Part shown: positions 11,019 to 50,965 of the stretch, piece after piece
Layout: each line of letters starts with the position of its first letter
Position numbering within the stretch: the first letter of the stretch is position 1
The notes under the pieces: model-generated
Database searches by the model: none
Told to the model about the DNA's origin: nothing
The model's input: the letters and a program-made list of their open reading frames with translations, nothing else
Position numbers and translations under genes: made by a program
Source of the DNA: Virgibacillus sp. MSP4-1
GTDB lineage: Bacteria; Bacillota; Bacilli; Bacillales; Alkalibacillaceae
NCBI RefSeq assembly: GCF_010092505.1
Contig: NZ_CP048021.1
Location: 2,232,001 to 2,296,000, forward strand
Direction of reading: 5' to 3'
DNA length: 64,000 bases

Positions 11019-11054
11019 TTTCCTCTACTATCCTTCTATATCTGTTCGAACCAT

Positions 11055-11306: not shown

Positions 11307-11317
11307 CGATCATGTTG

Positions 11318-11661: not shown

Positions 11662-11699
11662 GATGGCTAAAGCACTGCACTACTTGTAAACAAACCACT

Positions 11700-15378: not shown

Positions 15379-15447
15379 TAAAACTTAATCTCCTTTTTTA
15401 TTCATATTAACTAAAAATCTAGATACAAGATACAAATATAAAAGAAG

Positions 15448-16017
15448 TTATTGTAGAGGCTTCCCCTGCTTACCACCAAACGCCCGTTGGATTTTAAGTC
15501 TTTCATAATGGTTCACATCCCTGCTATTTATTTTTGTAGACAGGTGCGCGCCATAAATGCCACACTTGTCAACAACACCACTAACAACAGCCCCAGCACC
15601 TATTATTGCACCTTCTTTTATATGTGTTCCGGGTAAAATAACAACATTTATGCCAATCCAAACATTTTCCTCAATAAGTACTTTTCTAAACTTATGTGTT
15701 TTATCGTAGGGTAACAATTCTCCTTCGTAGTTATGGTTATGAGTATATATAACTACATTCCGGGAAATATGTGTATTATCACCAATGTAAAGGCCGCCTT
15801 CAGCTCTTATATAAGCATTGTTTCCGATATGAACATTATTACCAACTGTTATCTCTTGGATTCCTGTTATCTGACTAATACCATTAAAATATACACCTCT
15901 TCCTATATTTTTCATTTTTCTTTTGTAAAAGTTTTGAAGGTAAAGATGAATTAATTTGTTCATTATCTTTTTTATCTTAAACAACAATTTACCTAAAAAG
16001 ACTAATATACTTATCAT
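15448..16017 (-). CDS. Left-handed beta-helix acyltransferase (probable sugar O-acetyltransferase)
   Basis: Hexapeptide-repeat acetyltransferase of 189 residues. Seen: successive turns ISQITGIQEITVGNNVHIGNNAYIRAEG broken into hexads, the active-site histidines in YTHNHNYEG, and IGINVVILPGTHIKEGAIIGAGAVV near the C-terminus. This is the CapH/maltose-acetyltransferase-like branch, not the PglD/EpsM branch that acts on amino sugars, so it probably O-acetylates the repeat unit. AGGAGG precedes the ATG; it overlaps the flippase stop by 4 bases (ATGA). An N-terminal hydrophobic stretch (ISILVFLGKLLFKIKKIM) may tie it to the membrane. Confidence 0.87.
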   Translation of the reverse strand: MISILVFLGKLLFKIKKIMNKLIHLYLQNFYKRKMKNIGRGVYFNGISQITGIQEITVGNNVHIGNNAYIRAEGGLYIGDNTHISRNVVIYTHNHNYEGELLPYDKTHKFRKVLIEENVWIGINVVILPGTHIKEGAIIGAGAVVSGVVDKCGIYGAHLSTKINSRDVNHYERLKIQRAFGGKQGKPLQ

Positions 16018-23450: not shown

Positions 23451-24380
23451 TTACCAGTCATAATTCTTATAATATCTTTGCCAATAACCATTCGTCAGTT
23501 TCTTTACCGTTTCTATTTCTTCATAAGAAAGAGAATTCTTCCATGACTTAACGTTCGAGGCGCTATTCCTCTTTAATTCATTAATTGTTTCCATATCAGG
23601 CACAACTATATCTGAGGATGTGTATTTTTTAATTGTCTTGGTAATATGATCATTAAACGGGATTCCTAGTTCTCTATACAATTCCCTAAATTGTTCTATA
23701 GGGTTTAATGATATATCTTCATGTCTAACAACAATAAAATTTGGATTATTATCAATAAAATCAAACAAAACTTTATGAATGCAGACCCATAATATCGAGT
23801 CTCTTTCAGTTTTTGTCAGATCTGAAATCCGATAATCTAAAACGTCCTTCAAATAGTCATCCATTAAATGTTTTTGATTAAAAAAACGTTGAAAATCAAA
23901 ATTCCAATTAACTCTCTTCAAACTTGCAACGAATGCAGCAGGATGTCTCACAATCACTATAACTTTAAAACCAAAATTTTGTACAAGCCATTCAGACATA
24001 AAGCTTGCAATGGGGTCTTTTATGAGTATAGTATCTGATAATGGATTATATTTCGATTTTATATAATATAAGTTAGGTTTAGACTTTAATACTTTCTTTA
24101 CTATTTTGTTTAAATAAGGATCTTTCTGGTTTAAATCAAGGGTTGATTTAAAATAACTTTTTCCTGCCAAAAAGTTATTAACCAGCCTTCTATATTCGTT
24201 TTCATTTGGCATTCCATTTTTTAAATATAAATAATGTTTATTTATATCTTCAAGACCATGTCTTGGATTAAAAGGTTCATACAAATAGTCAACCTTACTT
24301 GAAATAGATAGCATCTGCCCAATAAAAGTACTGCCACTTCGATGAGACCCTGTTACGAGTAAACGCCTCTTTTTATACAT
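23451..24380 (-). CDS. PAPS-dependent sulfotransferase (3 of 5)
   Basis: Predicted carbohydrate sulfotransferase of 309 residues. Seen: phosphosulfate loop TGSHRSGSTFIGQML (10-24), EPFNPRHGL (35-43), 3'-phosphate motif VIVRHPAAFVASL with R145 (142-154), and VVRHEDISLNP. EPFNP after the loop is common in the GlcNAc/Gal sulfotransferase-like branch. It overlaps the upstream glycosyltransferase gene by 8 bases and is followed by the polymerase gene, so it sits among the repeat-unit assembly genes. Cytosolic by lack of signal sequence. Confidence 0.9.
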   Translation of the reverse strand: MYKKRRLLVTGSHRSGSTFIGQMLSISSKVDYLYEPFNPRHGLEDINKHYLYLKNGMPNENEYRRLVNNFLAGKSYFKSTLDLNQKDPYLNKIVKKVLKSKPNLYYIKSKYNPLSDTILIKDPIASFMSEWLVQNFGFKVIVIVRHPAAFVASLKRVNWNFDFQRFFNQKHLMDDYLKDVLDYRISDLTKTERDSILWVCIHKVLFDFIDNNPNFIVVRHEDISLNPIEQFRELYRELGIPFNDHITKTIKKYTSSDIVVPDMETINELKRNSASNVKSWKNSLSYEEIETVKKLTNGYWQRYYKNYDW

Positions 24381-29179: not shown

Positions 29180-30832
29180 ATGAAGAAGAGTTTAATTTTT
29201 ATTGTTGGTTTGATTATTGCTGCCGGGGTTGTGTTTTGGATTATGGATCGGGACAATCCGGCACAGGAGGCGACGGCCAAGCCGGATGATTTTGAGTACC
29301 CGCCTACGGTTGCGACGGATTTGCTGGAGGAGCAGGAGCAGCTGGAGGAGACGATTTTGCAGGAGAGTGAAGGCAGCACGTTTGCAGAGCCTTATGTGAA
29401 GCTGGATCCTTACAATCGTTCCCCTTTATCTGCGCTGGCGATTTTTTCTACTGAGGAGCCGAAGCAGGTTTCGGTGACGGTTGAGGGGGAAACGGATGAT
29501 GCGGATATTTCCAATACGTTTGAGGGCTATAAAAAATATCACGAAATTCCGATTTTAGGGTTGTATCCTGATGCTGAAAATACGGTTCATCTTACCGTAA
29601 CCACAGAATCAGGCGAAACTTCTGAGAAAACCTTGAATTTGGAGACCGAGCCGCTGCCGGATTACATTCCTACCATTAAGGTGAAGGAAGTGCAGAAGGA
29701 AAAAATGGATCTGGCGGACACGAGTTTGACGTTTGCGATTCCTAGTACAAAATATCCTTATGCTTTTGATGCAAATGGGGACATTCGCTGGTACGGTTCG
29801 GGCTACAACAGTCACGTGCTGAAGGAGCTTAAGAACGGAAATCTGCTTTATTTAGGTAAAGATGATAACAGCGGCAATGCTTATAACCGCTTGTTTGAGA
29901 CGAATTTTATCGGGAAGCTGTTTAATGCCTTTAAGATTAGCGAGGAGGCGGCCCAGGCGGAATCAGAAGGAATGGAGTCCACGCTGATCCACCATGATAT
30001 CGCGGAACTGCCGAGCGGGAATTTGCTTTTAACCGTGAATGATGGAAAAGGCAATTATATGGAAGACACGATGATTGAAATCGACCGCAAGACCGGTGAA
30101 GTGGTGAAAGTCATTGATCTGAAGGCGCTTGTTCCGGAAGAGATGTACACGGACTACGACAGTACGCCGAAAAAGGATGGGCTGACGGACTGGTTCCACC
30201 AGAATTCGCTCGTCTATGATGAAAGTGACGACAGCATTATTATCTCCGGGCGTAACTCGGATACCGTGATGAAAATCGACTACGAAACGAACGAGATTAA
30301 GTGGATTCTGGCTGACTCCGAGGGTTGGACAGGCAAGTATGAAGATCTGGTTGTGGAAGGCGTTGGTGAGGATTTCAAATATCCAGCCGGCCAGCACGAT
30401 GCCACGATTATGCCGGACTTCGATAACAATCCGGATACGATTGACCTGCTCATCTATGATAATAACACCGTTGTCACCCGCGGGAATGAGGAACTGTCGA
30501 AGGATTACAGCGCCGGCGTTCAGTACCGGATTAACGAGAAGGAAAAGACCGCTGAGATTATCTGGTCCTATGGTGAAGAGCGCGGTGAAGAGCTGTTTAC
30601 AAATATCGTCGGCAGTGCAAAATATATGGAGGACACCGGCAATCGCCTGCTCGGCTTCGGGCACGTTGATAAAGGCGAGCGGAGTCATATTATTGAAGTG
30701 ACCAATGATCAGGAAGCTGATGTTGTGTTTGAGGCAGTGATGTCAGACTTTCCTAAAGGCGCCTGGGTATATCGCGGCGTGCGGTATGAGCTTTATTCAG
30801 GTGAGTGGGAAGAGAAGTTTTCGGTTAAATAA
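29180..30832 (+). CDS. Extracellular arylsulfate sulfotransferase (ASST family)
   Basis: PAPS-independent sulfotransferase that moves sulfate from a phenolic sulfate ester to another hydroxyl, outside the membrane. 550 residues. Seen: an uncleaved-type N-terminal helix (4-20), an N-terminal beta domain, then a propeller with DWFHQNSLVYDESDDSIIIS and SGRNSDTVMKID. H340 and R358 stand 18 residues apart, the same spacing as the catalytic H356 and R374 of E. coli AssT; H406 in QHDATIMPD and H271/H272 in HHDI are the likely other two histidines. GGGAGAGAG precedes the ATG. It is monocistronic, with a strong terminator, and much richer in GC than its neighbours. Confidence 0.88.
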   Translation: MKKSLIFIVGLIIAAGVVFWIMDRDNPAQEATAKPDDFEYPPTVATDLLEEQEQLEETILQESEGSTFAEPYVKLDPYNRSPLSALAIFSTEEPKQVSVTVEGETDDADISNTFEGYKKYHEIPILGLYPDAENTVHLTVTTESGETSEKTLNLETEPLPDYIPTIKVKEVQKEKMDLADTSLTFAIPSTKYPYAFDANGDIRWYGSGYNSHVLKELKNGNLLYLGKDDNSGNAYNRLFETNFIGKLFNAFKISEEAAQAESEGMESTLIHHDIAELPSGNLLLTVNDGKGNYMEDTMIEIDRKTGEVVKVIDLKALVPEEMYTDYDSTPKKDGLTDWFHQNSLVYDESDDSIIISGRNSDTVMKIDYETNEIKWILADSEGWTGKYEDLVVEGVGEDFKYPAGQHDATIMPDFDNNPDTIDLLIYDNNTVVTRGNEELSKDYSAGVQYRINEKEKTAEIIWSYGEERGEELFTNIVGSAKYMEDTGNRLLGFGHVDKGERSHIIEVTNDQEADVVFEAVMSDFPKGAWVYRGVRYELYSGEWEEKFSVK

Positions 30833-32131: not shown

Positions 32132-33178
32132 TTATGATTGACGTTTTCCTGAAACAAGATTTAACAGAGGTCTGTAATTCTGACTGATAAGACCCGTGAT
32201 TTCAACAGTAAGTTCGATTAATACCGCTAACGCCACCAAAATCATCATCGATCCCCACATTGTACTGCGGGTAAATATAATAGCTGCAATACTGAAAATC
32301 CCGCTTAATCCATAAATCATAAGTACAGATTTTCTATGACTGTAACCCAGTCGAATCAGGCAGTGGTGTAAATGGGATTTATCTGGTGCACTAACAGGTT
32401 TTCCCTGAATTATACGACGCACAACAGCAAAGGTTGTATCCACAAGTGGTACTCCCAAAATAATGATGGGTACGATAATTGAGAAGAATGTTACGTTTTT
32501 AAAAAGGCCCAAAATAGATAACGTACTTATCATAAAACCAAGGAAATATGAACCTGTATCTCCTAAGAAAATCCTGGCTGGGTAGAAATTAAATACTAAA
32601 AAACCAAGGGTGCTTCCCAAAAGCATCAAACCAACTACTGCAACAAACATATTTCCCATGGCAATCGCCATTCCTGAAATCGTGATGAGCACGATGGAAG
32701 ATACTCCGGCAGCCAAACCATCTAATCCATCAATCAAATTCATAGCATTCGTAATCGCTACAATCCAAAAAACGGTAATGGGAATACTCCATACACCAAA
32801 ATCTATTCTTGGTCCAAACGGAAGGGTAATAAAATCAATCTGAACACCATTTACCACTACCAAAATTGCAATTACTGTCTGAGCCATGAACTTCAAACCA
32901 GAGGATAAACCTATGACATCGTCTATGACCCCCAAGCATAAAGTTAGCGTCGCACCTAACCCTATAGTCCAGAGGTACGGATGATCAGGATAAAATAACA
33001 TAAGGCCTGCTAAAAAACTAAAGTATATGGCTAAACCACCTAATCTAGGCATTGTTTTATCATGAACTTTCCTTTGGGCAGGTAGGTCCACTGCATTTAT
33101 TTTAAGGGCTGCTTGTTTAACAAGTGGCGTAATGACCAGAGCCATCAGAAAACATACCAGAATGGATATATATAGCAT
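32132..33178 (-). CDS. tagO: Undecaprenyl-phosphate GlcNAc-1-phosphate transferase (TagO/WecA family)
   Basis: Membrane enzyme that starts wall teichoic acid, and often other wall polymers, by forming GlcNAc-PP-undecaprenol. 348 residues. Seen: about 11 helices, RKVHDKTMPRLGGLAIY, the acidic pair in LGVIDDVIGL, TNAMNLIDGLDGLAAGVS, FLGDTGSYFLGF and the C-terminal SHLHHCLIRLGYSHR histidine box. Start moved to ATG 33178, which has AGGAGG seven bases upstream; the frame reaches 33208. Monocistronic, as in B. subtilis, where tagO also lies away from the main tag genes. It links the tagA/tagD/TagF genes of region 4 to a lipid primer. Confidence 0.94.
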   Translation of the reverse strand: MLYISILVCFLMALVITPLVKQAALKINAVDLPAQRKVHDKTMPRLGGLAIYFSFLAGLMLFYPDHPYLWTIGLGATLTLCLGVIDDVIGLSSGLKFMAQTVIAILVVVNGVQIDFITLPFGPRIDFGVWSIPITVFWIVAITNAMNLIDGLDGLAAGVSSIVLITISGMAIAMGNMFVAVVGLMLLGSTLGFLVFNFYPARIFLGDTGSYFLGFMISTLSILGLFKNVTFFSIIVPIIILGVPLVDTTFAVVRRIIQGKPVSAPDKSHLHHCLIRLGYSHRKSVLMIYGLSGIFSIAAIIFTRSTMWGSMMILVALAVLIELTVEITGLISQNYRPLLNLVSGKRQS

Positions 33179-33499
33179 GATGCTTCCTCCTATGTATTCC
33201 AATTCCATAACATCTCGTTCACATTTATAAACTACGACAACGTATTCAGATTTTTGGGTACCAACAATTTCTCCTTAATTAGACGAATGGTATTGAGAAG
33301 ATGTTTCAATAAAATTCAAGACATCCATATTTTTTAAATTGGTATGGGGAGATCATTTTATGTCAATAATATCGGGATGTGTATTGATTGGTATTTCACC
33401 TTCATTTCTATGTTTAGTTTCAATCAATATTTCATATTTATTATGAATTTTAACAGGTTGGAAATACTTAAAAAAAAGAAAACATCAGGAGTGCTCGAT
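33179..33499. other. Divergent intergenic stretch between tagO and the GT2 gene
   Basis: AT-rich and without a credible gene; the open frame that runs from 33344 into the GT2 gene lacks a ribosome site. Promoters for both sides must lie here but I see no clear -35/-10 pair. Confidence 0.5.
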
Positions 33500-38393: not shown

Positions 38394-39212
38394 ATGCAAA
38401 ATCTTTTAAGAAGACTTTATCATTACCCAAAAGATTTAGTACGGGCACAACTAAATAGAATAGCTACCATAAACCAAGAACCCATAATTATAATTGGAAA
38501 CCATAAAAGTGGTACTTCCGCAATCGCAGCCTTGCTCTCAGAATTAACCGGAAAGAGTGCCACAATTGATTTGCCCGGGATTTGTGAACCTATACAACCA
38601 CAACTACACCGCAAAGAGATATCCTTTGAAACCTTTGTGGAAAATAATAAGTACGATTTCTCAAAAGACATTATTAAGGAACCATCTCTTACCTTTTTAT
38701 ACAAGGATTTTATGAACTATTTTCCAGAGGCCACTGTGGTCTTTATAGTTAGAGATCCACGTGATAATATCCGTAGTATTCTTAATCGTGTAGACATTCC
38801 TGGTCATCTTCCACATATCAATCAGGAAGAGAACATAAGAAAGTTAAAAGAGGCTCCAACTGACTGGGAACGTGTTATTGACAGCAGATGGTTAGGCATT
38901 GAAGGTGAAAATTACATTGAATGGATGGCACACCGTTGGAATTTAGCTGTTGATATTTATAATAAACACATAGATAGCATGCAACTGATTCGTTATGAGG
39001 ATTTTGTAAAAGATAAACGAGGAGCTATTGAAGAGCTCGCTGAAAAGTTAGGGCTTGCTAAAGGGAAGGATATTGCTGAAAAAGTTGATGTTCAATTCCA
39101 GCCTCGAGGTAAAAATCGGAATATTGATACATTCACGTTCTTTGGACCAGATAATTTAAAAAAAATTGAGGATATTTGTCATACACGTATGAAAATCTTT
39201 GGTTATGTCTAA
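38394..39212 (+). CDS. PAPS-dependent sulfotransferase (4 of 5)
   Basis: 272 residues. Seen: phosphosulfate loop IIGNHKSGTSAIAALL (33-48), 3'-phosphate motif FIVRDPRDNIRSIL with R120 (117-130), WMAHRWNLAVDIY and IRYEDFVKDKRGAIEELAEKL. This DPRDNIRS form resembles chemotype branches that act on lipid-linked or secreted sugars, but the acceptor cannot be read. ATG 38394 has AGGGGGGG upstream. It opens a plus-strand operon with flippase, deacetylase and polymerase, so sulfation again belongs to a polysaccharide assembly set. Confidence 0.9.
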   Translation: MQNLLRRLYHYPKDLVRAQLNRIATINQEPIIIIGNHKSGTSAIAALLSELTGKSATIDLPGICEPIQPQLHRKEISFETFVENNKYDFSKDIIKEPSLTFLYKDFMNYFPEATVVFIVRDPRDNIRSILNRVDIPGHLPHINQEENIRKLKEAPTDWERVIDSRWLGIEGENYIEWMAHRWNLAVDIYNKHIDSMQLIRYEDFVKDKRGAIEELAEKLGLAKGKDIAEKVDVQFQPRGKNRNIDTFTFFGPDNLKKIEDICHTRMKIFGYV

Positions 39213-39294
39213 TACTTAAGCAGACAAATTCAAATTACATGTAATCCATGAAAAATCCCTGATAAGGCTATTATTTTTTTGGAGAGGTATTGTT

Positions 39295-40824
39295 TTGAAA
39301 TCAAAAATAGGATTCGCTAGTCTATTGTTCATGTTTGCAACTCTTTTGTTAAAAGTCTCTGCATTAATACGAGACATGGTTATAGCCTATTTTTTTGGCG
39401 GAAGTTATGTGGCGGATGCTTATTTAGCAGCGTTTATATTACCCAACATGATTATTTTATTTTTGATGACTGGAATGAAAAACGCTTTTGTCCCAAGTTA
39501 TATTCAAGCTTTGGAGTATAAAAAAGAATCTCATCACTTAAATCAGGTATTTAAAGGAACCATTTTTTTTAGTTTTATTCTATCATTAGTCGGAATTATA
39601 TCAGCGCGAAGTTACATCCCTGCTCTTTTTCCAGAGTTTAACCCTGCAACTCAGGAAATAGCCATCTATGTCAGTATAATTCTGTTTGCATCGATTACAT
39701 TTGTCGGGATGAATGCGGTATTAAGCGCCTATTTTGATGCCATACACAAGTATACATACTCCGTTATTTCACAAAATATTGTCGTTATCTCAACCATTCT
39801 CGGGGCTCTGCTTTTTGCAGATAATATCAGTGTCTATTCATTAGCATTCGGGTATTTAGCCGGAACGGTTCTGGCCTTTCTTTACAAATTAAGCCTGTTG
39901 ATACCCAAAAATGTAATTCAGGTTAAAGAAAAACTAAATCTTAAGGAAATTAAATCCTTTTACGTCGTGTTTGTTCCAGTAGCATTAACAGCAGCTGTTG
40001 GGCAGATTAATCTATTTGTAGACAATGTTTTTGCAAGCTACTTTGGTGAAGGGGCTGTTACCTTTATTAACTATGCTAAAACCCTGGTTCACTTTCCCCA
40101 GGCCATCTTTGGGGTAACGATAGGTACAGTTGTGTTCCCAATACTATCCAAGGCCATCGCCGAGAACCAGCAAAGATTATTTAAGGAAGGCATAGAACGG
40201 GGACTGACCGCCATGTTTTATATCCTTCTTCCTGCCATTGTCGGCATGATGATGCTTATGCCCTCTATTATTGACTTGCTATACGAACGAGGTGCATTTA
40301 ATCACAACGACACTATGACTACGACACAGGTTGCTTATTACTACTTTGGTTCAGTTTTGTTCTTCAGCTTACATAACATTGTGAACAAAGGCTTTTATAC
40401 GTTAAAAAAGGGACATCTAATTTTAGGAATAGGTTGCATTGCCGTCATATTAAACGTCTTACTTAACTTTATTTTCACGAACTGGATTGGATATAAGGGT
40501 ATTCCACTCGCATCTTCTGTTATGGCGTTCTGTTATGTATTAGCAAGTTTTATTGTCCTCTATAAACTGACAGGAGCTATTCCTCTAAAAAATATTGGGA
40601 TAGAATTTGCCAAGGTTATTTTTTCTGTACTGGTTATGGCTGCGATTATACGGGGAGCACTTCCTCTCACTCAGGAATGGTCTGATATTTTGCAAATTAT
40701 CGTCATAAGTATCTCCGGAGCATGTGTTTATTTTTTGTGCACCTATATCCTAAGATCAAGGGCACTTCAATTTTTCATTCAAACCATTCAGCATCGTTCA
40801 GGAGGAGAAAGAAATGGGGCTTAA
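39295..40824 (+). CDS. MurJ/MviN-like flippase (locus 3)
   Basis: 509 residues, about 14 helices, MOP superfamily. Seen: LLKVSALIRDMVIAYFFGGSYVADAYLAAF broken at the MurJ-like RDxxxAxxFG box, NLFVDNVFASYFGEGAVTFINYA and FPQAIFGVTIGTVVFPILS. The start is TTG 39295, eight bases after GGAGAGG. Because it lies between a sulfotransferase and a deacetylase and polymerase, a role as the Wzx-equivalent for this polysaccharide is more likely than lipid II export, although I cannot exclude a second MurJ. Confidence 0.88.
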   Translation: MKSKIGFASLLFMFATLLLKVSALIRDMVIAYFFGGSYVADAYLAAFILPNMIILFLMTGMKNAFVPSYIQALEYKKESHHLNQVFKGTIFFSFILSLVGIISARSYIPALFPEFNPATQEIAIYVSIILFASITFVGMNAVLSAYFDAIHKYTYSVISQNIVVISTILGALLFADNISVYSLAFGYLAGTVLAFLYKLSLLIPKNVIQVKEKLNLKEIKSFYVVFVPVALTAAVGQINLFVDNVFASYFGEGAVTFINYAKTLVHFPQAIFGVTIGTVVFPILSKAIAENQQRLFKEGIERGLTAMFYILLPAIVGMMMLMPSIIDLLYERGAFNHNDTMTTTQVAYYYFGSVLFFSLHNIVNKGFYTLKKGHLILGIGCIAVILNVLLNFIFTNWIGYKGIPLASSVMAFCYVLASFIVLYKLTGAIPLKNIGIEFAKVIFSVLVMAAIIRGALPLTQEWSDILQIIVISISGACVYFLCTYILRSRALQFFIQTIQHRSGGERNGA

Positions 40825-41746
40825 ACAAACCATCATGGATCTATCTGAACCAATCGTAATACCGATTACAAAGCTTGTATTATCCAGACATTATGCAGGA
40901 AACAGATACCCGTCTCAATTAGGAGCCTACAAAAGGATTGCAGTTCTGGCTCCTCATATGGATGACGAAACCATTGGTGTCGGGGGAACCATTAGACGCC
41001 ATGCGAATGAAGGCGCAAAAGTTCATTGTATTTTCACAACCGACGGATCAAGTAGCGTAACTTCTATGGATAGAGACGAACTGTCGAATCAAAGAAAGCA
41101 GGAGATGAATAAAGTTAAGCATATACTCGGAATTCATCAAATTCATTACATGGATTTACCGGATGGGCATGTTCAGAGTAATGTTAAAAGCCAGAACGAT
41201 CTATTAAAAATATTGAAAGAGATTCAACCGGACTTAATTTACTGTACACCATTTATTGATGCACATCCCGACCACCTGGCCACCACTCAATTGTTGGCAG
41301 ACACCTTAAAACGAACTGATTTACATCGTACAAAGATTCGTTTGTATGATGTAAATTGTCCGATTCCGCCCTCTGAAGTGAACTGTATTATTGATATTAC
41401 AGATTCATTTAGTGATAAATCACATGCGATAGAATTATTCAGCTCCCAGACAATTGCCTTTGACGGTTTTTTACTTCTGAACCAATACAAGGCAAAATTA
41501 ATAAAGCATTTTCCCGTTCATTATGCAGAGGTATTCATTCAACTTTCTGTACCGGATTTTACAAAACAGCAGCAGAATACGGGTCAAATGTCGTCTCAAT
41601 ATCCTTCTTTATTTAAGCAGGTCAACCGTACTGTCACCTTGCTCTGGGCAGTTTTTAAAAATTTTCGGCTAAAAAAAAGACTTTATCAGTCTCGTTATGT
41701 AAGTGAGGGAACCGTTAATGGAGAAAAGTCAACAAATGATCCATAA
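40814..41746 (+). CDS. PIG-L/LmbE family deacetylase
   Basis: Zinc enzyme of 310 residues that removes N-acetyl groups from sugars such as GlcNAc. Seen: APHMDDETIGVGG with H48, D50 and D51 and the second metal site in DAHPDH (149-154, H151 and H154). Cytosolic. AGGAGG precedes the ATG and it overlaps the flippase by 11 bases. It would expose a free amine on a lipid-linked GlcNAc, which creates both a charge and a possible N-sulfation site for the sulfotransferase in the operon; that link is inference. Confidence 0.9.
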   Translation: MGLKQTIMDLSEPIVIPITKLVLSRHYAGNRYPSQLGAYKRIAVLAPHMDDETIGVGGTIRRHANEGAKVHCIFTTDGSSSVTSMDRDELSNQRKQEMNKVKHILGIHQIHYMDLPDGHVQSNVKSQNDLLKILKEIQPDLIYCTPFIDAHPDHLATTQLLADTLKRTDLHRTKIRLYDVNCPIPPSEVNCIIDITDSFSDKSHAIELFSSQTIAFDGFLLLNQYKAKLIKHFPVHYAEVFIQLSVPDFTKQQQNTGQMSSQYPSLFKQVNRTVTLLWAVFKNFRLKKRLYQSRYVSEGTVNGEKSTNDP

Positions 41747-43031
41747 ACTTGAAATCTTTTTTATTTTATTTATTCCTATTCAGCCAATTTTGGACGTAAC
41801 GGCTTATTTTCATTTACCTATATCGGAACCTGTACGTATCCTGGCCATGATTACAGGGGGGATGTATATTTTCCTTTATTATCATCAGCGGGTCAGGAGC
41901 CTTTCGCTCATTTATTTTTCTCTTTTGGGAATTGTACTTTTTACTGGACTTCTAAATAACTTTTTTGTAAAAGACTCTTTTTCATTATCCATTGAACTTG
42001 TTTATCTTATTAAAACCACCTATTTCGTTGTTATGCTCATAAGCTATTTTCTCGTCTTTCAGTCCTTACGTCAAAAAAGGAACTTGCAGAAAATTGTACA
42101 AAAGAATATTTTTATTGCTCTGAGCATTATAGGAATTGTGATGGCCCTTGCTGCCTTATCGGAAACAGGAAAAAGAAGCTATGATTACCTTTCAAAATCA
42201 GGTCACTCAGGATGGTTTTATTCAGCAAATGAGGTGAGTGCTATCATAGCGATGGGATTTGCTATGATGATTTTATACTTTATAAAGATGAAACGTATTT
42301 CTTTTAAACTTGTTCTCCTTCTTCCTATAACCCTTGTGATCTGGTCCGGTCTCACAATCGGGACAAAAGTAGGTCTGGGCGGCATTATTATCGTTCTTAT
42401 TGTCTCTATAATTCTCACGCTTACGGAGGGATTTATAAAAAAAAGGTGGCATAATGCAGTGCTCTTATCCCTAATTCTGGCTATGGCATTAATATATTTT
42501 CCTAAAGCGCCTATTGCCAATAATTTAGGGTTAACCCTATCTAAAATTCAGGATCAATCAGCTCCCCATGCAGACCAAGTGCCTTCGGATGATTATAATA
42601 CTGAAATTGTGTTAAGTGGTCGAAGTGATTTCCTAAAAACACAAATGGAACAATTTCAAGACGCTCCCTTCTCTCAGAAACTATTTGGTATGGGCCGTGG
42701 CGGGAATTACGAGGAAATACCAAAATTAATTGAAATGGATTTTATGGACTGGTTCTTCAACTTTGGTATTATCGGATTTTCAGCTCTCATACTGCCGTTG
42801 CTATACTTTGGATGGCGGATTATAAAAGGAGTCCTATTGCAAAGGTTTCACATGGGAGCAAACGTTTTATTAACTGGAACAGGTGTAATACTTGGACTGG
42901 GAACAGCATTTGTAGCAGGACATGTCTTATCATCACCAGCCGCTTCTATTTATCTGGCTGTATTTATTGCCTTATTAGATACACTTATCAGTGATAAAAC
43001 AGGTCACTTAACTTATTCAAAGCAGGTGTGA
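41718..43031 (+). CDS. Wzy/O-antigen ligase-like polymerase (locus 3)
   Basis: 437 residues, about 11 helices. Seen: IPIQPILDVTAYFHLP, SGWFYSANEVSAIIAMGFAM, a large outer loop with VLSGRSDFLKTQ and LFGMGRGGNYEEIPKLIEMDFMDWF broken by helices, typical of the Wzy_C/O-antigen ligase fold. ATG 41718 has GAGGG eight bases upstream and overlaps the deacetylase gene by 29 bases; the frame opens a little earlier at a GTG. Polymerises or ligates the product flipped by the MurJ-like protein. Confidence 0.85.
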   Translation: MEKSQQMIHKLEIFFILFIPIQPILDVTAYFHLPISEPVRILAMITGGMYIFLYYHQRVRSLSLIYFSLLGIVLFTGLLNNFFVKDSFSLSIELVYLIKTTYFVVMLISYFLVFQSLRQKRNLQKIVQKNIFIALSIIGIVMALAALSETGKRSYDYLSKSGHSGWFYSANEVSAIIAMGFAMMILYFIKMKRISFKLVLLLPITLVIWSGLTIGTKVGLGGIIIVLIVSIILTLTEGFIKKRWHNAVLLSLILAMALIYFPKAPIANNLGLTLSKIQDQSAPHADQVPSDDYNTEIVLSGRSDFLKTQMEQFQDAPFSQKLFGMGRGGNYEEIPKLIEMDFMDWFFNFGIIGFSALILPLLYFGWRIIKGVLLQRFHMGANVLLTGTGVILGLGTAFVAGHVLSSPAASIYLAVFIALLDTLISDKTGHLTYSKQV

Positions 43032-43036
43032 GTAAC

Positions 43037-44170
43037 ATGGGAAAACAGATAAAAAAGAAAAAATCCAGCCATCGTATCCTGGTTATCACCAATATGTATC
43101 CAAGTCAGGTTCATCCATCGTTTGGGATCTTTATAAAAAACCAGGTAGATGCATTAAGATTGCGCGGGTTTGATATCGATGTTATTGCTGTACAAGACCC
43201 GAGAATGGGTAAATTCCGTGTGATCCGGAAGTATTTTTTTTGGGCATTAAAAGTTGCAGCTTCTTTACTAAACGGAAAACGATATGATCTTGTGCACGCT
43301 CATTATATTGTACCAAGCGGGTTACTAGGGCTTTTGGTTAAGAAAATACAAGGAAGCCGTCTTATTATTACGTCCCATGGAGGAGACCTGGATAAAATGG
43401 CTAAAATCCATCCTCTAATGGAGCGACTCACTGGAAGGATCCTGCACCAGTCCGATTATATTATCGCAGTTGGAGAAGAATTAAAACAAAAGTTAGTCGA
43501 ACACTATCGTATATCGACGAATAAATTGGAAATAATAAATATGGGAGTAAATCGTAAAATCTTTCGCCCTATTGATGATAAGAAAGCAAAAGATACCTTA
43601 CAGCTTAATTATCATTATACCCATCTTTTATTTGTAGGAAATCTTATTAAAGCTAAAGGCATACTGGAATTGGTGGAAGCATTCAAACAACTTAAAAAAA
43701 AGCACAATATGTTGCAGCTTCATTTAATTGGTGCAGCTAAAGAACCAGACTTTATGCACCATATTGAAGCATTAATTCAAAATGAAGAGGATATTTTCAT
43801 TTATCAGCCGCTTAAACAAAAAGATATTGCAATTTGGATGTCAGCAGCAGATTTGTTCATTCTGCCTTCACACATGGAGGGGTTCGGATTAGTTGCTTTA
43901 GAAGCTATGTCCTGTCACACCCCGGTTATCGGGAGTGATGTGGGTGGGCTGTCTTATTTATTGAGCAATAGAACAGGATTACTTATTCAGCCAAAAAACA
44001 CGCTTTCGTTGGAAAAGGCAATGGAAGACTTATTAAAAAATGAAAACTTGCGGGAGGAGCTTATTACAAAAGGGGAACAAAAAGCAGAACAAAACAGTCA
44101 AGACCGATTGTTAGATCAGCTTGTTTACATATACCACTTTTTGATCGGAGAGAACAAAAATGAAGGATAA
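43037..44170 (+). CDS. GT4 glycosyltransferase (locus 3)
   Basis: 377 residues, cytosolic GT-B. Seen: VITNMYPSQVHPSFGIFIKNQV, VHAHYIVPSGLLG, ITSHGGDLDKM, LLFVGNLIKAKGILELVEAF and EGFGLVALEAMSCHTPVIG with donor glutamates. The family is the broad GT4 capsule group; the sugar cannot be named. I take ATG 43037, eight bases after AGGTG, over a GTG at 43028 that overlaps the upstream stop. Followed by the PssD gene with an 11-base overlap. Confidence 0.87.
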   Translation: MGKQIKKKKSSHRILVITNMYPSQVHPSFGIFIKNQVDALRLRGFDIDVIAVQDPRMGKFRVIRKYFFWALKVAASLLNGKRYDLVHAHYIVPSGLLGLLVKKIQGSRLIITSHGGDLDKMAKIHPLMERLTGRILHQSDYIIAVGEELKQKLVEHYRISTNKLEIINMGVNRKIFRPIDDKKAKDTLQLNYHYTHLLFVGNLIKAKGILELVEAFKQLKKKHNMLQLHLIGAAKEPDFMHHIEALIQNEEDIFIYQPLKQKDIAIWMSAADLFILPSHMEGFGLVALEAMSCHTPVIGSDVGGLSYLLSNRTGLLIQPKNTLSLEKAMEDLLKNENLREELITKGEQKAEQNSQDRLLDQLVYIYHFLIGENKNEG

Positions 44171-44630
44171 GAAGATATTGCTCATTTCATCCATAGGTGG
44201 TCATTTAACACAACTATTACAACTTAATTCCCTATTCCAAAATTATCAATATCATATTGTAACCGAAAAATCCGAAATTACTGTCCCCCTGAAGAATCAG
44301 TATTCTGTATCATTTCTAGTTTATGGGGCAAGGAACTATCCTGTACGTTATTTATTTAAGTTTGGTTACAACATATTGAAGTCTTTCTTCATTTTTTTGC
44401 GCAAACGTCCTAATGTCGTTATAACCACAGGTGTGCATACTGCAGTACCTATGTGCTATATCGCTAAGCTATTTCGCAAAAAGGTTGTTTATATTGAGAG
44501 CTTTGCCAAATCAAAAACACCTAGTCTTTCCGGAAAGTTAGTTTACCCAATTGCTGATTTATTCATTGTTCAGTGGGAAACTATGAAAGATGTTTACCCT
44601 GACGCCATTTATGGAGGTGCTATCTATTGA
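44160..44630 (+). CDS. PssD/CpsF-like glycosyltransferase subunit (Alg14-like)
   Basis: 156 residues. Membrane-anchoring partner that recruits the catalytic subunit encoded next. Seen: KILLISSIGGHLTQLLQL (5-22) with the SxGGHxxQL glycine motif, VITTGVHTAVPMCYIAKLF and YIESFAKSKTPSLSGKLVYPIADLFIVQW, all as in PssD/EpsF-type and Alg14 proteins. It overlaps the following gene by 4 bases (TTGA). Known: this pair acts as a two-part glycosyltransferase, usually for glucuronic acid or galactose. Confidence 0.92.
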   Translation: MKDKKILLISSIGGHLTQLLQLNSLFQNYQYHIVTEKSEITVPLKNQYSVSFLVYGARNYPVRYLFKFGYNILKSFFIFLRKRPNVVITTGVHTAVPMCYIAKLFRKKVVYIESFAKSKTPSLSGKLVYPIADLFIVQWETMKDVYPDAIYGGAIY

Positions 44631-45106
44631 TTTTTGTTGTTCTGGGAACACATGAGCTACCTTTCACACGCTTGTTACAGGAAGTAGAACGTCTCAAACG
44701 TGATGGGGTTATCAAAGATGATATCATCGTTCAAAAAGGGCACACCGAATTCGAGAGTGACTATATGACTCTTCAATCATTTTTCAGCTTTGACAAAATG
44801 GATTTGCTTTACCAGCAGGCCGATTTAATCATTAGTCATGCAGGAACCGGCTCAGTGATTAATGGCTTGAAAAAAGGGAAAAAGGTCATCGTTGCTCCTC
44901 GTTTAAAAAAATATGGCGAGCACAATGATGATCATCAATTGGAACTAGTGAATGTATTTACAGAACGAGGACATATTTTAAGTTGGAATGATGGGGAGCG
45001 TCTGGAGGATGTATTAAAGGAGAGTGAAGACTTTATGCCGGTTCCTTATCAATCCGGGAATGAGCGGATTGTTCGAATTCTGGAGGACTTTATTTCTGAT
45101 ATATAA
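44627..45106 (+). CDS. PssE/CpsG-like glycosyltransferase subunit (Alg13-like)
   Basis: 159 residues, catalytic half of the two-part enzyme. Seen: IFVVLGTHELPFTRLL (2-17), DLIISHAGTGSVINGLKKGKKV and VAPRLKKYGEHNDDHQLEL, the Alg13-like donor site. Start is TTG 44627, nine bases after GGAGG, overlapping the PssD stop. Last gene of the plus operon; a hairpin follows. UDP-sugar donor unknown. Confidence 0.92.
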   Translation: MIFVVLGTHELPFTRLLQEVERLKRDGVIKDDIIVQKGHTEFESDYMTLQSFFSFDKMDLLYQQADLIISHAGTGSVINGLKKGKKVIVAPRLKKYGEHNDDHQLELVNVFTERGHILSWNDGERLEDVLKESEDFMPVPYQSGNERIVRILEDFISDI

Positions 45107-45150: not shown

Positions 45151-47865
45151 TTAATTCATAACCTCTTCAGCAAGCAATAATCCCAGAGAATCGTTTTGTC
45201 GCCAAATCCGGTCAAAGTTGCTTAATGGTACTGAACGTTCTTCTACATAAGGTGAAACCTCTGGCGTTAACCCAATCTTGTTAATTGAGTCAATGACCCA
45301 ATCCGTATACCCTCCACCACTAGGGTTATCAGGGTGGTACAGATAATAACCGGTTTTCTCGGACACCTTCTCAGCAACCCTTCTATATTCCTTTCTCTTC
45401 TCTCCGGTTGAATTGTACGCCCAGTACAACAATTCTCCAGATGAGTGATAGGCTACGTGTGCGTCAAAGTTATGATCTAAGGTGAAGTCATATAGAGCTT
45501 TAACTTCGGGTTCAGATAATGGGCTGGTCCCTTTGTAGTTTTTCGGTCCAGGATTAGAAGCAACGTTTCTTATGTTCTTCCAATTAGCCGGATATTGCCG
45601 GTTTAAGTCAACCCCTCTTGCGTTAGCCTTCCAAGAGATAAAATCTGTACTTCCATTATTCATACGAATAAGCTTAGAACGATTATTAAAATTATCTGCT
45701 CCAAATTGATTTAATGTCACACCATCCGGATTCACCATAGGAATGTAATAGATCGTTACTTCATCTAAAATATTCCGTACGTTGTATCCATCTATTTCAT
45801 CATCCTGAACATAGGCTTGACTGTACTCGTCAATCTGTTTCATCACTAAATTTGTCGTAATCCATTCACGAGCATGATGTGCAGCGTTAATGGTGATTTT
45901 CTTATCTCCTGTTCCAACTTTAACAAGATGGATATCTCTTCCTAATACAGATTGTCCAATAACATCTGTACTGATTAGACCTTGATAGGAGGCCTCCAAT
46001 TTGCGGATATCCTTAACCATCTGATCGTATGAGTATACCGTTTTCGGATTTACAATGGGTCCTGTATGCTTCATACCGACCGCAACATCGTCCTTATGAA
46101 TGTAGCCAGTATGAGGGTTTCCGTTCAGATATACAACGGCTTCATACCAATTAGATGTAAAGGATTCAAATTGTAACTGCGACCCGTAGTTATATCCTTT
46201 TAATTTCTTTGCATCTTTTGAGCTGTTTGAGTAGACATAAGTGGTATTCTGTACGGCCATCCCTTTAAGAGATTTTTGTTTGGTATCTACATCAATTATA
46301 TCATTCTTATGAATATATCCCGTATGAGGATCACCATCAAGATAAACAACCGCTTCATACCAATTATTCATAAATGATTGGTAATATAATAAATCCCCTT
46401 CATTATAGGACTTTAATATATCCTGTTTTTTGCTTGGCGCTGTATAAATATTCACTTTTGAACGATATGCATAGCCTTTAAGTTGTTTTTGATTGTTCAT
46501 TGGGACTTCTACATCTTCGGTATAGATGTAACCTGTTCGCTTTTTGCCATTTTTATATACAACGGCTTCATACCAATTGTCTATGAAGGTCTTAAAGTAA
46601 AGTAAGTGTCCCTGGTTATAGGACTTAAGTGATTTACTATCTTTAGAAGGATTTGTATATACATGAGTACGGTCAGTCATAGCATACGCCTGAACACTTT
46701 TCTGATTTTGAACTGGTTCTTCTACATCATTAACGTGGATATATCCTGTACGGGGGCTGCCATTTATGTATACAACCGCTTCATACCAATTATCCATGTA
46801 TGTCTGATAGTATAGTACGTTTCCCGAATTATATGCCTTCAATGTTGAACTGTTTCGACTAGGTCTGGAATAAACTATTGTCGATTTCTTTACGGAAATT
46901 CCTTTTAAGTCCTTTTGATTTTCAATTGGTTGTTCCACATCGGATGCTTTGATATAACCTGAGTGCCTTTTCCCTTTTAAATAAACCGTTGCCTGATACC
47001 ATCCATCGATAAAGGTTTTGTAGTATAATCTTTTCCCTTTTGGATAGTCTTTTAAGACTTTTGCATCTTGACCAGGATTTGCATAAACATTGGTATTTTC
47101 CTTTAATGAGATTCCAGAAAGTGATATCGGGTTATCTGTTGGTTCATCTACATCCTGTTGAGCAATAAAACCTGATTGGGGTGTCCCGTTGATATAAACC
47201 ACAGCTTTATACCACCCAGGTATAAATGTCTTATAATATAATAGTTCCCCTTTATCGTAACTTTTCAAGACATTTGATTGTTTATTGGCCTTTTTGTATA
47301 CATGAACCTCGTTCTTAATAGCAATACCTCGAAGGTTTTTTGGCCTTTGGACAGGTTCTTCTACATCATTCGCATAAATAAAACCCTTTTTATGTTTACC
47401 ATCAATAATTACAGTTGCCTCATACCAATTAGACGTCAATGTACGATAATATAAGTATGACCCTTTTTCGTAATCCTTCCATGCTTTTGCATTGGTAGTT
47501 GGCTGCTGATACACTTTGGTATTATCGTTTAGAGCAATTCCTTTTAATTGTTCTGAATTAGAAGAGGCTAATTCGACATCACTTTTATGTATGTAACCAT
47601 TGACTAAATCATTCTCTCCTTCAACCTTAACAATAAGCCAATCCTTACTGTCCTTATCCACTTGATAGTTTATGATTGCTCCTTCCTTCATTTTCTGTAA
47701 CTGTTCTGATTCTGCATTTTTTTCCGCATAAACAGCAGTAGATTCCTTAACTACGATAGCTCTTTGTTTCTCATCTGCACTTAAATAACCTGCATGTTGG
47801 GTAATAATAAGTGCCATAGTAAACACGAATAAATAGAAACTACCTTTTAACCATTTCCATTTCAA
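45151..47865 (-). CDS. Secreted M14 carboxypeptidase with eight SH3-like wall-binding repeats
   Basis: 904 residues. Seen: signal peptide (about 1-30, ending near YLSA); one divergent SH3-like unit (34-106); seven tandem units of 71 residues (107-603), each with LKGIAL-type start, a YxKGxxLYY core, WYEAVVY and TGYIHxxDVE end; and a C-terminal zinc peptidase of family M14 (from 613). Zinc ligands are H664 and E667 in HHAREW and H807 in AYHSSGE; R750 and N755-R756 lie in NARGVDLNR; E869 in LTPEVSPY is the catalytic base. Known M14 enzymes with such repeats cut peptidoglycan or poly-glutamate. TTG 47865 follows GGAGGTG. The repeats match those of the glucosaminidase at 56390. Confidence 0.9.
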   Translation of the reverse strand: MKWKWLKGSFYLFVFTMALIITQHAGYLSADEKQRAIVVKESTAVYAEKNAESEQLQKMKEGAIINYQVDKDSKDWLIVKVEGENDLVNGYIHKSDVELASSNSEQLKGIALNDNTKVYQQPTTNAKAWKDYEKGSYLYYRTLTSNWYEATVIIDGKHKKGFIYANDVEEPVQRPKNLRGIAIKNEVHVYKKANKQSNVLKSYDKGELLYYKTFIPGWYKAVVYINGTPQSGFIAQQDVDEPTDNPISLSGISLKENTNVYANPGQDAKVLKDYPKGKRLYYKTFIDGWYQATVYLKGKRHSGYIKASDVEQPIENQKDLKGISVKKSTIVYSRPSRNSSTLKAYNSGNVLYYQTYMDNWYEAVVYINGSPRTGYIHVNDVEEPVQNQKSVQAYAMTDRTHVYTNPSKDSKSLKSYNQGHLLYFKTFIDNWYEAVVYKNGKKRTGYIYTEDVEVPMNNQKQLKGYAYRSKVNIYTAPSKKQDILKSYNEGDLLYYQSFMNNWYEAVVYLDGDPHTGYIHKNDIIDVDTKQKSLKGMAVQNTTYVYSNSSKDAKKLKGYNYGSQLQFESFTSNWYEAVVYLNGNPHTGYIHKDDVAVGMKHTGPIVNPKTVYSYDQMVKDIRKLEASYQGLISTDVIGQSVLGRDIHLVKVGTGDKKITINAAHHAREWITTNLVMKQIDEYSQAYVQDDEIDGYNVRNILDEVTIYYIPMVNPDGVTLNQFGADNFNNRSKLIRMNNGSTDFISWKANARGVDLNRQYPANWKNIRNVASNPGPKNYKGTSPLSEPEVKALYDFTLDHNFDAHVAYHSSGELLYWAYNSTGEKRKEYRRVAEKVSEKTGYYLYHPDNPSGGGYTDWVIDSINKIGLTPEVSPYVEERSVPLSNFDRIWRQNDSLGLLLAEEVMN
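46057..47547 (-). repeat. Seven tandem 213-base repeats coding SH3-like units
   Basis: Period 213 bases (71 codons). Units are diverged at the DNA level but keep the protein pattern, so expansion is old compared with the repeats at 57557-59047. In-frame, coding, no spacer. Confidence 0.85.
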
Positions 47866-47986: not shown

Positions 47987-48730
47987 CTAACCTTTTTTCC
48001 TGGCCAAGACTAATAGAATAAATTGAAAGACTTTTAAAATTCTTTTCCAACGAAAAGGTTGTTTCAATAGTCTGTATAGCCATTCCAAATTGAAACGTAT
48101 CCAGCTTTCTGGCGCACGCTTGGCTTCACCTGAAAAGATATCGAAACTTCCACCTACTCCCATAAAAAAGCCTTTATCAAAGTCTTCGTAGTATCTTGCA
48201 ATCCATTTTTCCTGTTTAGGAAATCCAAGAGCAACAAATATTAAATCAGGTCTGGTTTTCTTTATTTTGTTAACAATCTCCTGATCATCGAGTGATATAT
48301 AACCATGATGATAGCCGGCGATTTCTAAGTTAGGATATTTTTCCTGTAAATTTTTTGTCATTTTACGGACAACTGTATCTTTGGCTCCTAAAAAAAAACA
48401 GCGAAGTCCCATTTTCTCTGCATATTCCAGTAAATGAATCATCATTTCTATACCTGGAATACGTTCATGAATAGGCTGACGTTTAATTTTAGATGCCAAA
48501 ATAATTCCAGCACCATCTGGTATGATATAATCAGCCTTCTTAATCGCATTTTTATATTCAGCATCCTCCCTGGCGTGCATAACAATTTCAGGGTTTGCCG
48601 TAACCATGAATCTCTTATTCTCGTATAATAAGTCAGGATGAATGTGAAACGATATTAAATCTTCTCTATTAATATTTATAAAAGGAATATCCATTATAGT
48701 TACATGTTTTGCTTCATGTATACTGGGCAT
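47987..48730 (-). CDS. tagA: WecG/TagA/CpsF-family glycosyltransferase (ManNAc transferase)
   Basis: 247 residues. In wall teichoic acid synthesis TagA adds ManNAc to the GlcNAc-PP-undecaprenol made by TagO. Seen: TANPEIVMHAREDAEYKNAI, PDGAGIILASKI with the catalytic aspartate, HERIPGIEMM, CFFLGAKDTVVRKM, GYHHGY, DLIFVALGFPKQEKWI and SGEAKRAPESWIRFNLEWLYRLLKQPFRW in shorter parts, all standard. AAGGGG precedes the ATG. It is monocistronic here, apart from tagD and the TagB-like gene, unlike B. subtilis tagAB. Confidence 0.9.
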   Translation of the reverse strand: MPSIHEAKHVTIMDIPFININREDLISFHIHPDLLYENKRFMVTANPEIVMHAREDAEYKNAIKKADYIIPDGAGIILASKIKRQPIHERIPGIEMMIHLLEYAEKMGLRCFFLGAKDTVVRKMTKNLQEKYPNLEIAGYHHGYISLDDQEIVNKIKKTRPDLIFVALGFPKQEKWIARYYEDFDKGFFMGVGGSFDIFSGEAKRAPESWIRFNLEWLYRLLKQPFRWKRILKVFQFILLVLARKKG

Positions 48731-48887: not shown

Positions 48888-49820
48888 TTACTTTTCTTCA
48901 GTATTTGCCCAATAAAATCTAAAGAAAACAACAAAAACACTTACTATTAAACCTAATGCAAGCGCAAAGGCCATATTGAGTACCTTATTAGGGGCAATCG
49001 GATTATAACCAGCATAAGCTTCAGAAATCATGTTAATTCGATCATCCACTAAATCCAAAGATTTGGCTGTCTTTGCATCGGAATAGTTGCTATAAAATTG
49101 TTTATAACGTTCATTAGTTTGTGATATTTTTTCATTAACCTGCTCATATTCAACCTGAGTCTCTTTTTCTAAATCTCTTAATTCTGATAGCAATTGTTCG
49201 TTTGCTTCTAGAACATATTGTGAGTCTGAAGCATTCTGTTGAAATAAAACTAATAGTGGAAGACCCTCTGTATTTTCTAATTCTTTATAATCCTTCAAAT
49301 ATTCTTCAAGTTGCTTTTCTTCTTCTTCCATTTTTTCAGCATATAGCTTCTGATAGGAATTAAAGTGATCATTCATAGCTTGCTCAATCGACAGTTTAGC
49401 TTTGTTAACAACTGTATTTAAAATGGAAGTGATTTTATCACGATTTGTTCCTTCAACTGAAAGGTTTATCAAAAATTCATTGTTTTCTGGTTGAGTGATA
49501 TTTAGTCTATTCTGCAAAGCCGAAACGGATTGGTTCTTCAAGTCAAGTTCTTCAATAGTCTCTTGTAATACTTCAGGAGATTTTACTTTTTCAACAAAGA
49601 CATCCCTTGTTGTACCATTCTTAACATATTCAGCCAATGATCCAACAGGTGGTTCTACATTATTAATAGTAATAGAAGTATTCGCTTCATAAACCGGAGA
49701 TGCTATAAATGAGCTATAAATAAAAGCAATCACAACAAATACTGCTGTTATAGCAGCAATGATCCACTTGCCTTTTAACAGAGTTTCAATTATTTCTCTC
49801 AAGCTTATCTCGTTTTCCAT
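48888..49820 (-). CDS. Orphan Wzz-domain chain-length protein
   Basis: 310 residues. Seen: N-terminal NEISLREIIETLLKGKW with a helix (IIAAITAVFVVIAFIYSS), a long extracellular coiled coil (about 140-245, rich in E, Q and K: KMEEEEKQLEEYLKDYKEL), NPIAPNKVLNMAFALALGL before a second helix, and a very short cytoplasmic tail. It resembles YwqC/YveK but has a longer outer part, and no tyrosine kinase gene is next to it; the short tail also lacks the RK-rich kinase contact. It may set chain length for the teichoic-like polymer or borrow YwqD. Confidence 0.85.
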   Translation of the reverse strand: MENEISLREIIETLLKGKWIIAAITAVFVVIAFIYSSFIASPVYEANTSITINNVEPPVGSLAEYVKNGTTRDVFVEKVKSPEVLQETIEELDLKNQSVSALQNRLNITQPENNEFLINLSVEGTNRDKITSILNTVVNKAKLSIEQAMNDHFNSYQKLYAEKMEEEEKQLEEYLKDYKELENTEGLPLLVLFQQNASDSQYVLEANEQLLSELRDLEKETQVEYEQVNEKISQTNERYKQFYSNYSDAKTAKSLDLVDDRINMISEAYAGYNPIAPNKVLNMAFALALGLIVSVFVVFFRFYWANTEEK

Positions 49821-50059: not shown

Positions 50060-50965
50060 CTAATCTAAATAATTTTTAGTTAGCTCTAGATTTCTTCTTT
50101 TATTTAGTTTTCTGTTTTCTTCATTATAACGATTTTTCAAATTATTTTGTAAGTCATCAGACAATTCAAAGCGTTTATAATGTATTTTGTAACTAATTTT
50201 ATTTTGGAGAAAAGTACGAGGAAACATTTTTTTGCCTTTTATTTTATAGACTGGGAACATTCCATCTGGATTCATTTTAGTCTTAAAGAAGTAATTTAAC
50301 CGTCTGGCTATCTTAGCTTGCATAACTCCATAACTTCTGTTAAGAGGCTCTTCTTTATATTCAGGGATTTGCTCTTCACCCATATAATTTAATAGTTTTA
50401 GTAAATAATCGTTTGGTTCCTTTTGAAACTTCTCATATACAAAAACATAATAGTTGCTGCCAAACAGCCTTTCAACATTCTCTAAATAAGTGTCATATTT
50501 ATAATTATCTAAAACCCCCATTCTATCAAGATCATTCAGATAATTGTCAGCTTTCTTATAACCACCCATATGTAAGTATTGAATATACAAAGAAGTTATC
50601 AGTCGAACCTGTTCCCGTAAACCTATAATAATATGTACATCATACAATTCTTCAGGGAAAACTCTACGTAAGTCTTCTAAAATCTTAATATTGTTCTTTG
50701 GTCTTTTTCTTTTAAAAGGACTTCCTGAAAGACCTTCATACGATATTAATGTAGGCACTCCTTCTTTACCTAAGCTATCAATTTTTGTTCTTATCCTAAG
50801 GATATCTCCTTCATTTAACTTCCGAACTCTTAAATCGTATAATTCCTGGTTTATTCGTTTTTTTCTAATGCGCTTAACATTCATTAAATTAGGATAGATA
50901 CTTCGTTGCAAAAATGTTGTAGCTGTTTTATGAAACCCAATATGCAGAAATATTGTTTTTTTCAT
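50060..50965 (-). CDS. Sulfotransferase family protein (5 of 5), in the teichoic region
   Basis: 301 residues. Seen: the HIGFHKTATTFLQ loop (8-20), the KTGTT-type phosphosulfate site of the bacterial sulfotransferase branch, and IIIGLREQVRLITSLY with R117 as 3'-phosphate contact (112-127), then YVFVYEKFQKEP. The RKKRINQELY and basic C-terminal half (NKRRNLELTKNYLD) are rich in Lys/Arg, which may fit an anionic acceptor. GAGGTG lies eight bases before the ATG. It stands as a single gene between an orphan Wzz gene and TagF-family genes, so a teichoic-acid-type polymer is the likely acceptor; this is inference from context. Confidence 0.85.
   Translation of the reverse strand: MKKTIFLHIGFHKTATTFLQRSIYPNLMNVKRIRKKRINQELYDLRVRKLNEGDILRIRTKIDSLGKEGVPTLISYEGLSGSPFKRKRPKNNIKILEDLRRVFPEELYDVHIIIGLREQVRLITSLYIQYLHMGGYKKADNYLNDLDRMGVLDNYKYDTYLENVERLFGSNYYVFVYEKFQKEPNDYLLKLLNYMGEEQIPEYKEEPLNRSYGVMQAKIARRLNYFFKTKMNPDGMFPVYKIKGKKMFPRTFLQNKISYKIHYKRFELSDDLQNNLKNRYNEENRKLNKRRNLELTKNYLD

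Follow-up and report, generated by a model that had tools for sequence, protein, structure and literature searches.

Organization of the operon

The 64,000-nucleotide stretch of the Virgibacillus sp. MSP4-1 genome analysed here (contig NZ_CP048021.1, positions 2,232,001 to 2,296,000; hereafter the window) contains, at 38394-45106 on the plus strand, seven open and intact reading frames that pair a sulfotransferase and a PIG-L-type deacetylase with polysaccharide assembly genes. The first gene (38394-39212) encodes a sulfotransferase of 272 aa, designated ST_op, which matches Sulfotransfer_3 (PF13469; 47.2 bits, cut-off 27) and also PF00685 (36.8 bits) and PF17784 (26.7 bits), both over cut-off. 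Of the possible starts at 38394 and 38370, the former is favoured, as a G-rich sequence resembling a ribosome-binding site sits just 5' of it. A gene with a TTG start (39295-40824) follows and encodes a 509-aa MurJ/MVF-type flippase for lipid-linked oligosaccharides (PF03023; TIGR01695, 254.5 bits, cut-off 235.55). The third product is a PIG-L/LmbE-type de-N-acetylase of 310 aa, hereafter PIG-L (40814-41746; PF02585, 101 bits, cut-off 28.2), and the fourth a Wzy/O-antigen-ligase-type membrane polymerase of 437 aa (41718-43031; O-antigen_lig, PF13425, 266 bits, cut-off 31). Next comes a GT4-type retaining glycosyltransferase of 380 aa (43028-44170; Glycos_transf_1, PF00534, 126 bits, cut-off 26.4), whose nearest NCBIfam models, TuaC, BshA and MshA, each score under cut-off. 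The operon closes with the adjacent genes for PssD (44160-44630; Alg14-like; NF041549, 190 bits, cut-off 110) and PssE (44627-45106; Alg13/GT28-C-like; NF041548, 139 bits, cut-off 120), the predicted halves of a split inverting glycosyltransferase, both of which exceed their equivalog cut-offs.

ST_op is separated from the flippase gene by a gap of 82 bp, and the five junctions that follow are overlaps of 11, 29, 4, 11 and 4 bp. An earlier note on this DNA had proposed both this tight spacing, with overlaps after the flippase, and the identities of the seven products; the junctions confirm the former, and profile matches over curated cut-offs bear out the latter. Flippase, polymerase and glycosyltransferases are thus found in a single operon, as in Wzx/Wzy-type pathways.

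The sulfotransferase, the deacetylase and the sulfate donor

ST_op carries a motif resembling the 5'-phosphosulfate-binding (5'-PSB) loop, GNHKSGTSAI, which includes Lys38, a motif resembling the 3'-phosphate-binding (3'-PB) element, VRDPRDNIRSILNR, and also RDPRDN. Its AlphaFold2 (AF2) model, with a predicted local distance difference test score (pLDDT) of 85, matches the folds of sulfotransferases that use 3'-phosphoadenosine 5'-phosphosulfate (PAPS), and its assignment also draws on an alignment of six relatives. The best folds are tyrosylprotein sulfotransferases (TPSTs; Z 15-15.5, TPST1 15.5), followed by the N-deacetylase/N-sulfotransferase NDST1 and the 3-O-sulfotransferase 3-OST at Z ~13-14. 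Because these enzymes share the general sulfotransferase fold, the ranking settles neither the acceptor nor N- versus O-specificity.

PIG-L contains the motifs PHMDDE and DAHPDH as well as a C-terminal extension, and residues H48, D50, D51, H151, D153 and H154 are invariant in an alignment of 27 sequences. The nearest folds to its AF2 model (pLDDT 90) are diacetylchitobiose deacetylases, then BC1534 and BshB. Both PIG-L and ST_op begin with an N-terminal helix and have no signal peptide evident by eye, which would fit action on the cytosolic side of the membrane, the side supplied with PAPS.

Sulfate activation is encoded by a cluster of Sat, a CitMHS/SLC13-type permease with TrkA_C domains, CysC and CysQ located some 73 kb from the operon, at genome positions 2192575-2197071; this cluster holds the only adenosine 5'-phosphosulfate (APS) kinase gene of the genome. 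CysQ is the expected remover of 3'-phosphoadenosine 5'-phosphate (PAP) after sulfotransfer. The same four genes lie directly 3' of the ST_op orthologue in Alkalibacillus almallahensis, whereas in Thalassobacillus sp. CUG 92003 they come directly after a run of sulfotransferase, PIG-L, Wzy_C protein, PssD and PssE genes. In Thalassobacillus cyri they adjoin Wzy and PIG-L, and the ST_op relative is 2.5 kb off on the opposite strand. This linkage in relatives is the best evidence that ST_op would be a working PAPS sulfotransferase of the polysaccharide pathway. A CysH-type reductase gene lies far away, and reduction of PAPS or APS for assimilation may draw on the same precursors as sulfation.

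Conservation of the operon and recurrence of the gene pair

A sample of the order comprising 397 genomes from 136 genera was searched for relatives of PIG-L (E<=1e-25) and of ST_op (E<=1e-10). Relatives of PIG-L occur in 31 genomes (17 genera), those of ST_op in three. Another 28 PIG-L neighbourhoods were examined; within 7 kb of PIG-L, 17 of them have a MurJ relative, 14 GT4, 12 TagA, eight Wzy, six TagO homologues, five PssD/E and one ST_op. A Sulfotransfer_3 profile search (E<=1e-6) found no other sulfotransferase within 20 kb of PIG-L in the surveyed genomes. PIG-L belongs to a wider module linked to MurJ, GT4, Wzy and TagA.

The entire seven-gene order is kept in a genome from another genus of the same family (G020), with identities of 60% for the sulfotransferase, 57% for MurJ, 53% for PIG-L, 49% for Wzy, 53% for GT4, 76% for PssD and 72% for PssE. 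A chance arrangement of the genes was rejected on account of this kept order. The operon of G020 adjoins TagA, TagG/H and TarB/F-like genes; in the window, too, a TagA/WecG glycosyltransferase gene (47987-48730, minus strand; PF03808) belongs to the adjoining teichoic-acid-like cluster.

ST_op was also sought across 84,980 species genomes with a scan that requires exact peptide patterns, can omit records very near the genome of the window and may miss relatives; it was located in two Thalassobacillus genomes, in Alkalibacillus and in one metagenome-assembled genome (MAG) of Xenococcus. A class-level search for further sulfotransferase relatives returned only the window's own genome. The two Thalassobacillus genomes combine the pair with a different polymerase, without the MurJ/GT4 arrangement. 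In Alkalibacillus almallahensis and the Xenococcus MAG, the sulfotransferase has no related PIG-L nearby; the Alkalibacillus genome G002, which matches in gene layout, encodes only a short PIG-L next to uvrAB and a further one in a cluster that looks like nonulosonic acid synthesis, neither of them near ST_op. The Xenococcus gene (locus L103, 9971-10864) lies in a cluster of glycosyltransferase and ABC-export genes, and its product is ~45% identical to the Bacillota sulfotransferase. Such identity in a cyanobacterium suggests horizontal transfer of the sulfotransferase gene.

The survey of the gene pair that the earlier note had called for therefore has a divided outcome: the pair recurs in G020 and in two Thalassobacillus genomes, but 27 of the 28 other PIG-L loci examined lack the sulfotransferase. 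Obligate pairing was rejected, as PIG-L loci without the sulfotransferase and sulfotransferase loci without PIG-L both exist, which implies that in some lineages each enzyme does without its partner.

Proposed pathway

Read from its sequence, the operon is a genuine and conserved locus for sulfation plus deacetylation of a polysaccharide. Gene content, motifs, folds, the kept order and the PAPS-gene linkage of relatives are observations; from them we infer substrates, sugar identities, the order of steps, the position of the sulfate and attachment to the wall. The operon would serve a Wzx/Wzy-type pathway that makes a wall-associated glycopolymer of short repeats in a probably halophilic member of the Bacillota. 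The first step would be the priming of undecaprenyl phosphate with N-acetylglucosamine (GlcNAc)-1-phosphate by a TagO-type enzyme; the candidate initiator is a TagO/WecA-type enzyme (32132-33208, minus strand; PF00953), whose gene, like a Wzz-type gene (48888-49820), is nearby but outside the operon. The retaining GT4 and the inverting PssD/E would then add one sugar each, possibly alpha-GlcNAc and beta-glucuronic acid (GlcA). On the cytosolic lipid-linked repeat, PIG-L would strip the N-acetyl group from a GlcNAc, and ST_op, as a lineage-specific module, would transfer sulfate from PAPS to the same intermediate. The MurJ-like protein would flip the repeat and the Wzy-type protein polymerise it, yielding a more anionic or zwitterionic polymer.

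The sugars are suggested by analogy. Rhizobium PssDE adds glucuronate, and GalU-Ugd adjoin PssE in two relatives (G136 and G394), which hints at GlcA as the sugar of PssD/E. In BshA/BshB and MshA/MshB, alpha-GlcNAc is added and then deacetylated. As GT4 and PIG-L recall these pairs, and given the hint of GlcA, a repeat containing alpha-glucosamine (GlcN) and beta-GlcA is plausible. The sulfate might be placed on the free amine, on a hydroxyl of GlcN or on the uronic acid, and O-sulfation is slightly favoured over N-sulfation. No description of PIG-L in a Wzy-type pathway, or of this operon, was found in the open-access literature.

Competing explanations

The explanation that we favour, to which we give about an even chance, is that PIG-L deacetylates GlcNAc of the lipid-linked repeat and ST_op sulfates the same repeat, the two being separable decorations of a wall glycopolymer. 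Several observations weigh against this separability. PIG-L lies within 5 kb in three of the five other genomes that bear the sulfotransferase, whereas PIG-L occurs anywhere at all in 30 of 396 genomes (binomial p ~0.004, or ~0.03 at one genome per genus). The association is significant only with the targeted hits added, because the order sample alone gives a Fisher p of 0.15. In the six-sulfotransferase alignment, R160-V-x-D-S-R-W-x-G168 is common to the four PIG-L-linked enzymes and absent from both unlinked ones. This motif might mark an acceptor shared with PIG-L, a hint only because the tree of the six does not unite the four in one clade. Together, the excess of linkage and the shared motif could mean that PIG-L prepares the acceptor of ST_op, and biochemistry was found for no member. 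In a rival model, that of the earlier note, PIG-L bares the amine of a GlcNAc within the lipid-linked repeat for N-sulfation by ST_op, giving a polymer of N-sulfoglucosamine at the cytosolic stage, before flipping. Retention of the pair in the source genome, in G020 and, in a different arrangement, in Thalassobacillus agrees with such a sequence, as do the motif, the presence of NDST1 and 3-OST among the nearest folds (Z ~13.5), and an operon without an N-acyltransferase that would otherwise use the free amine. Lys38 of the 5'-PSB resembles the corresponding residue of NDST and 3-OST, but Lys-type 5'-PSBs are found in cytosolic SULTs as well. TPSTs outrank NDST in the fold comparison, and fold cannot separate N from O; relatives of ST_op in Alkalibacillus and Xenococcus lack this PIG-L, and most loci keep PIG-L without the sulfotransferase, which makes free GlcN look like a stable end product. 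We regard this route as unlikely on balance, and put N-sulfation of the polymer at about one in four. Somewhat lower still stands the specific version in which PIG-L and ST_op form a two-protein N-deacetylase/N-sulfotransferase, heparan-like but with an unrelated deacetylase, that places N-sulfoglucosamine in a GlcA/GlcN-type wall polymer at the lipid-linked cytosolic stage. The logic of N-deacetylation and N-sulfation seen by the earlier note thus survives in part: an intact deacetylase and a PAPS-type sulfotransferase do share one conserved operon, with PAPS genes to match, whereas an NDST-like pairing is weakened by its not being obligate and by the nearer TPST folds.

The two enzymes may also have separate targets, with PIG-L modifying the repeat, for instance, and ST_op another surface polymer. 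The window has at least five sulfotransferase-like genes, with more in its left flank, which makes a sulfotransferase gene beside polysaccharide genes less surprising here, and it holds further polysaccharide and teichoic-acid clusters. The 82-bp gap also parts ST_op from the block of overlapping genes, and the family occurs in other types of cluster in Alkalibacillus and Xenococcus. Against this, two genera have ST_op at the head of this conserved operon, and in two more genomes it is near PIG-L; we consider separate targets improbable. Far less probable is a role for PIG-L on some unrelated small molecule, a possibility that the earlier note had raised against its own proposal; GlcNAc-malate of bacillithiol synthesis would be an example. 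The best NCBIfam models of PIG-L are indeed BshB1 and BshB2; however, its scores of 75.7 (cut-off 182.5) and 61.0 bits (cut-off 195.25) are far under the equivalog cut-offs, and identification as the bacillithiol deacetylase BshB was rejected on these scores. Elsewhere the genome encodes another, shorter PIG-L protein, of 237 aa, which is the better bacillithiol candidate, and the MurJ and GT4 neighbourhoods of PIG-L relatives point away from a small molecule.

Comparison with known systems

Like NDST, the operon encodes de-N-acetylation together with PAPS-dependent sulfation, and the ST_op model matches the sulfotransferase domain of NDST1 at Z ~13.5. NDST differs in being one bifunctional polypeptide with its own deacetylase domain, of the His-His-Asp-triad type, that acts on the Golgi route; here there are two genes with a flippase gene between them, the deacetylase is PIG-L by sequence and fold, action is predicted to be cytosolic and probably on lipid-linked repeats, and the TPST fold is closer. 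With the PIG-L/LmbE deacetylases (diacetylchitobiose deacetylase, BshB, MshB and GlcNAc-phosphatidylinositol de-N-acetylase), PIG-L shares the fold, the metal motif HxDD(E)...HPDH and the expected de-N-acetylation of GlcNAc, but it has extended N- and C-termini and a flippase, polymerase and glycosyltransferase context rather than one of thiol or glycosylphosphatidylinositol synthesis. Rhizobial NodB and NodH are a deacetylase and a PAPS sulfotransferase that act on GlcNAc oligosaccharides; in that system the amine receives an acyl group and the sulfate is 6-O-linked. Such a gene pair alone therefore does not imply N-sulfation.

PssD and PssE of Rhizobium are two halves of one enzyme (PMC9961541), and both halves score over NCBIfam cut-offs here, as predicted counterparts of this pair and of pneumococcal Cps14F/G. 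The GalU-Ugd neighbours in relatives hint at the sugar. In Pontiella, glycosaminoglycan-like exopolymers with 75-80% N-sulfation were reported by nitrous acid, and an exopolysaccharide cluster there combines PF13469 sulfotransferases, GT4s and a TuaB-like protein (PMC7356697). This mainly N-sulfated bacterial exopolysaccharide is a further point in favour of N-sulfation in Virgibacillus. Pontiella belongs to another phylum, however, and PIG-L is unmentioned in the main text of that report. Bacterial N-sulfation has thus already been claimed for Pontiella, with putative enzymes.

Genomic surroundings

Further Sulfotransfer_3/1 genes are located on the minus strand at 4229-5089, 14548-15378 and 23451-24380, in other polysaccharide or teichoic-acid clusters, and the product of 50060-50965 (minus) looks like a sulfotransferase by eye, without a Pfam match. 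The left flank (locus L011) adds sulfotransferase genes at 11086-11871 and 15230-15910, both minus, and all Sulfotransfer_3 matches of the genome lie inside ~47 kb. A PAPS-independent arylsulfate sulfotransferase (ASST, PF05935, 289 bits) is encoded at 29180-30832 (plus), between polysaccharide clusters. An epsC RNA (EAR antitermination element, RF01735, 93.8 bits) at 11067-11182 (minus) precedes the polysaccharide block 956-11073. Immediately beyond the left edge of the window, an IS21-like transposase/helper pair is present in two identical copies in inverted orientation, at 4587-6872 and 6872-9347 of L011. On either side of the teichoic-acid-like genes, a large protein is encoded in which many SH3-like repeats are joined to an enzyme: an M14 carboxypeptidase at 45151-47865 (minus) and a glucosaminidase at 56390-59224 (minus).

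Significance

To our knowledge, little has been learned of sulfated glycopolymers in Gram-positive bacteria. As of 2020, glycosaminoglycan-active sulfotransferases were stated not to be known from prokaryotes (PMC7356697). The locus offers a compact, testable set of glycosyltransferases, a deacetylase, a sulfotransferase and PAPS genes for a putative deacetylated and sulfated wall polymer of the Bacillota. Its heparan-like interpretation is put forward as a hypothesis open to test. If the sulfate does lie on nitrogen, PIG-L and ST_op would constitute a bacterial alternative to NDST made of two soluble proteins, useful in heparin biosynthesis.

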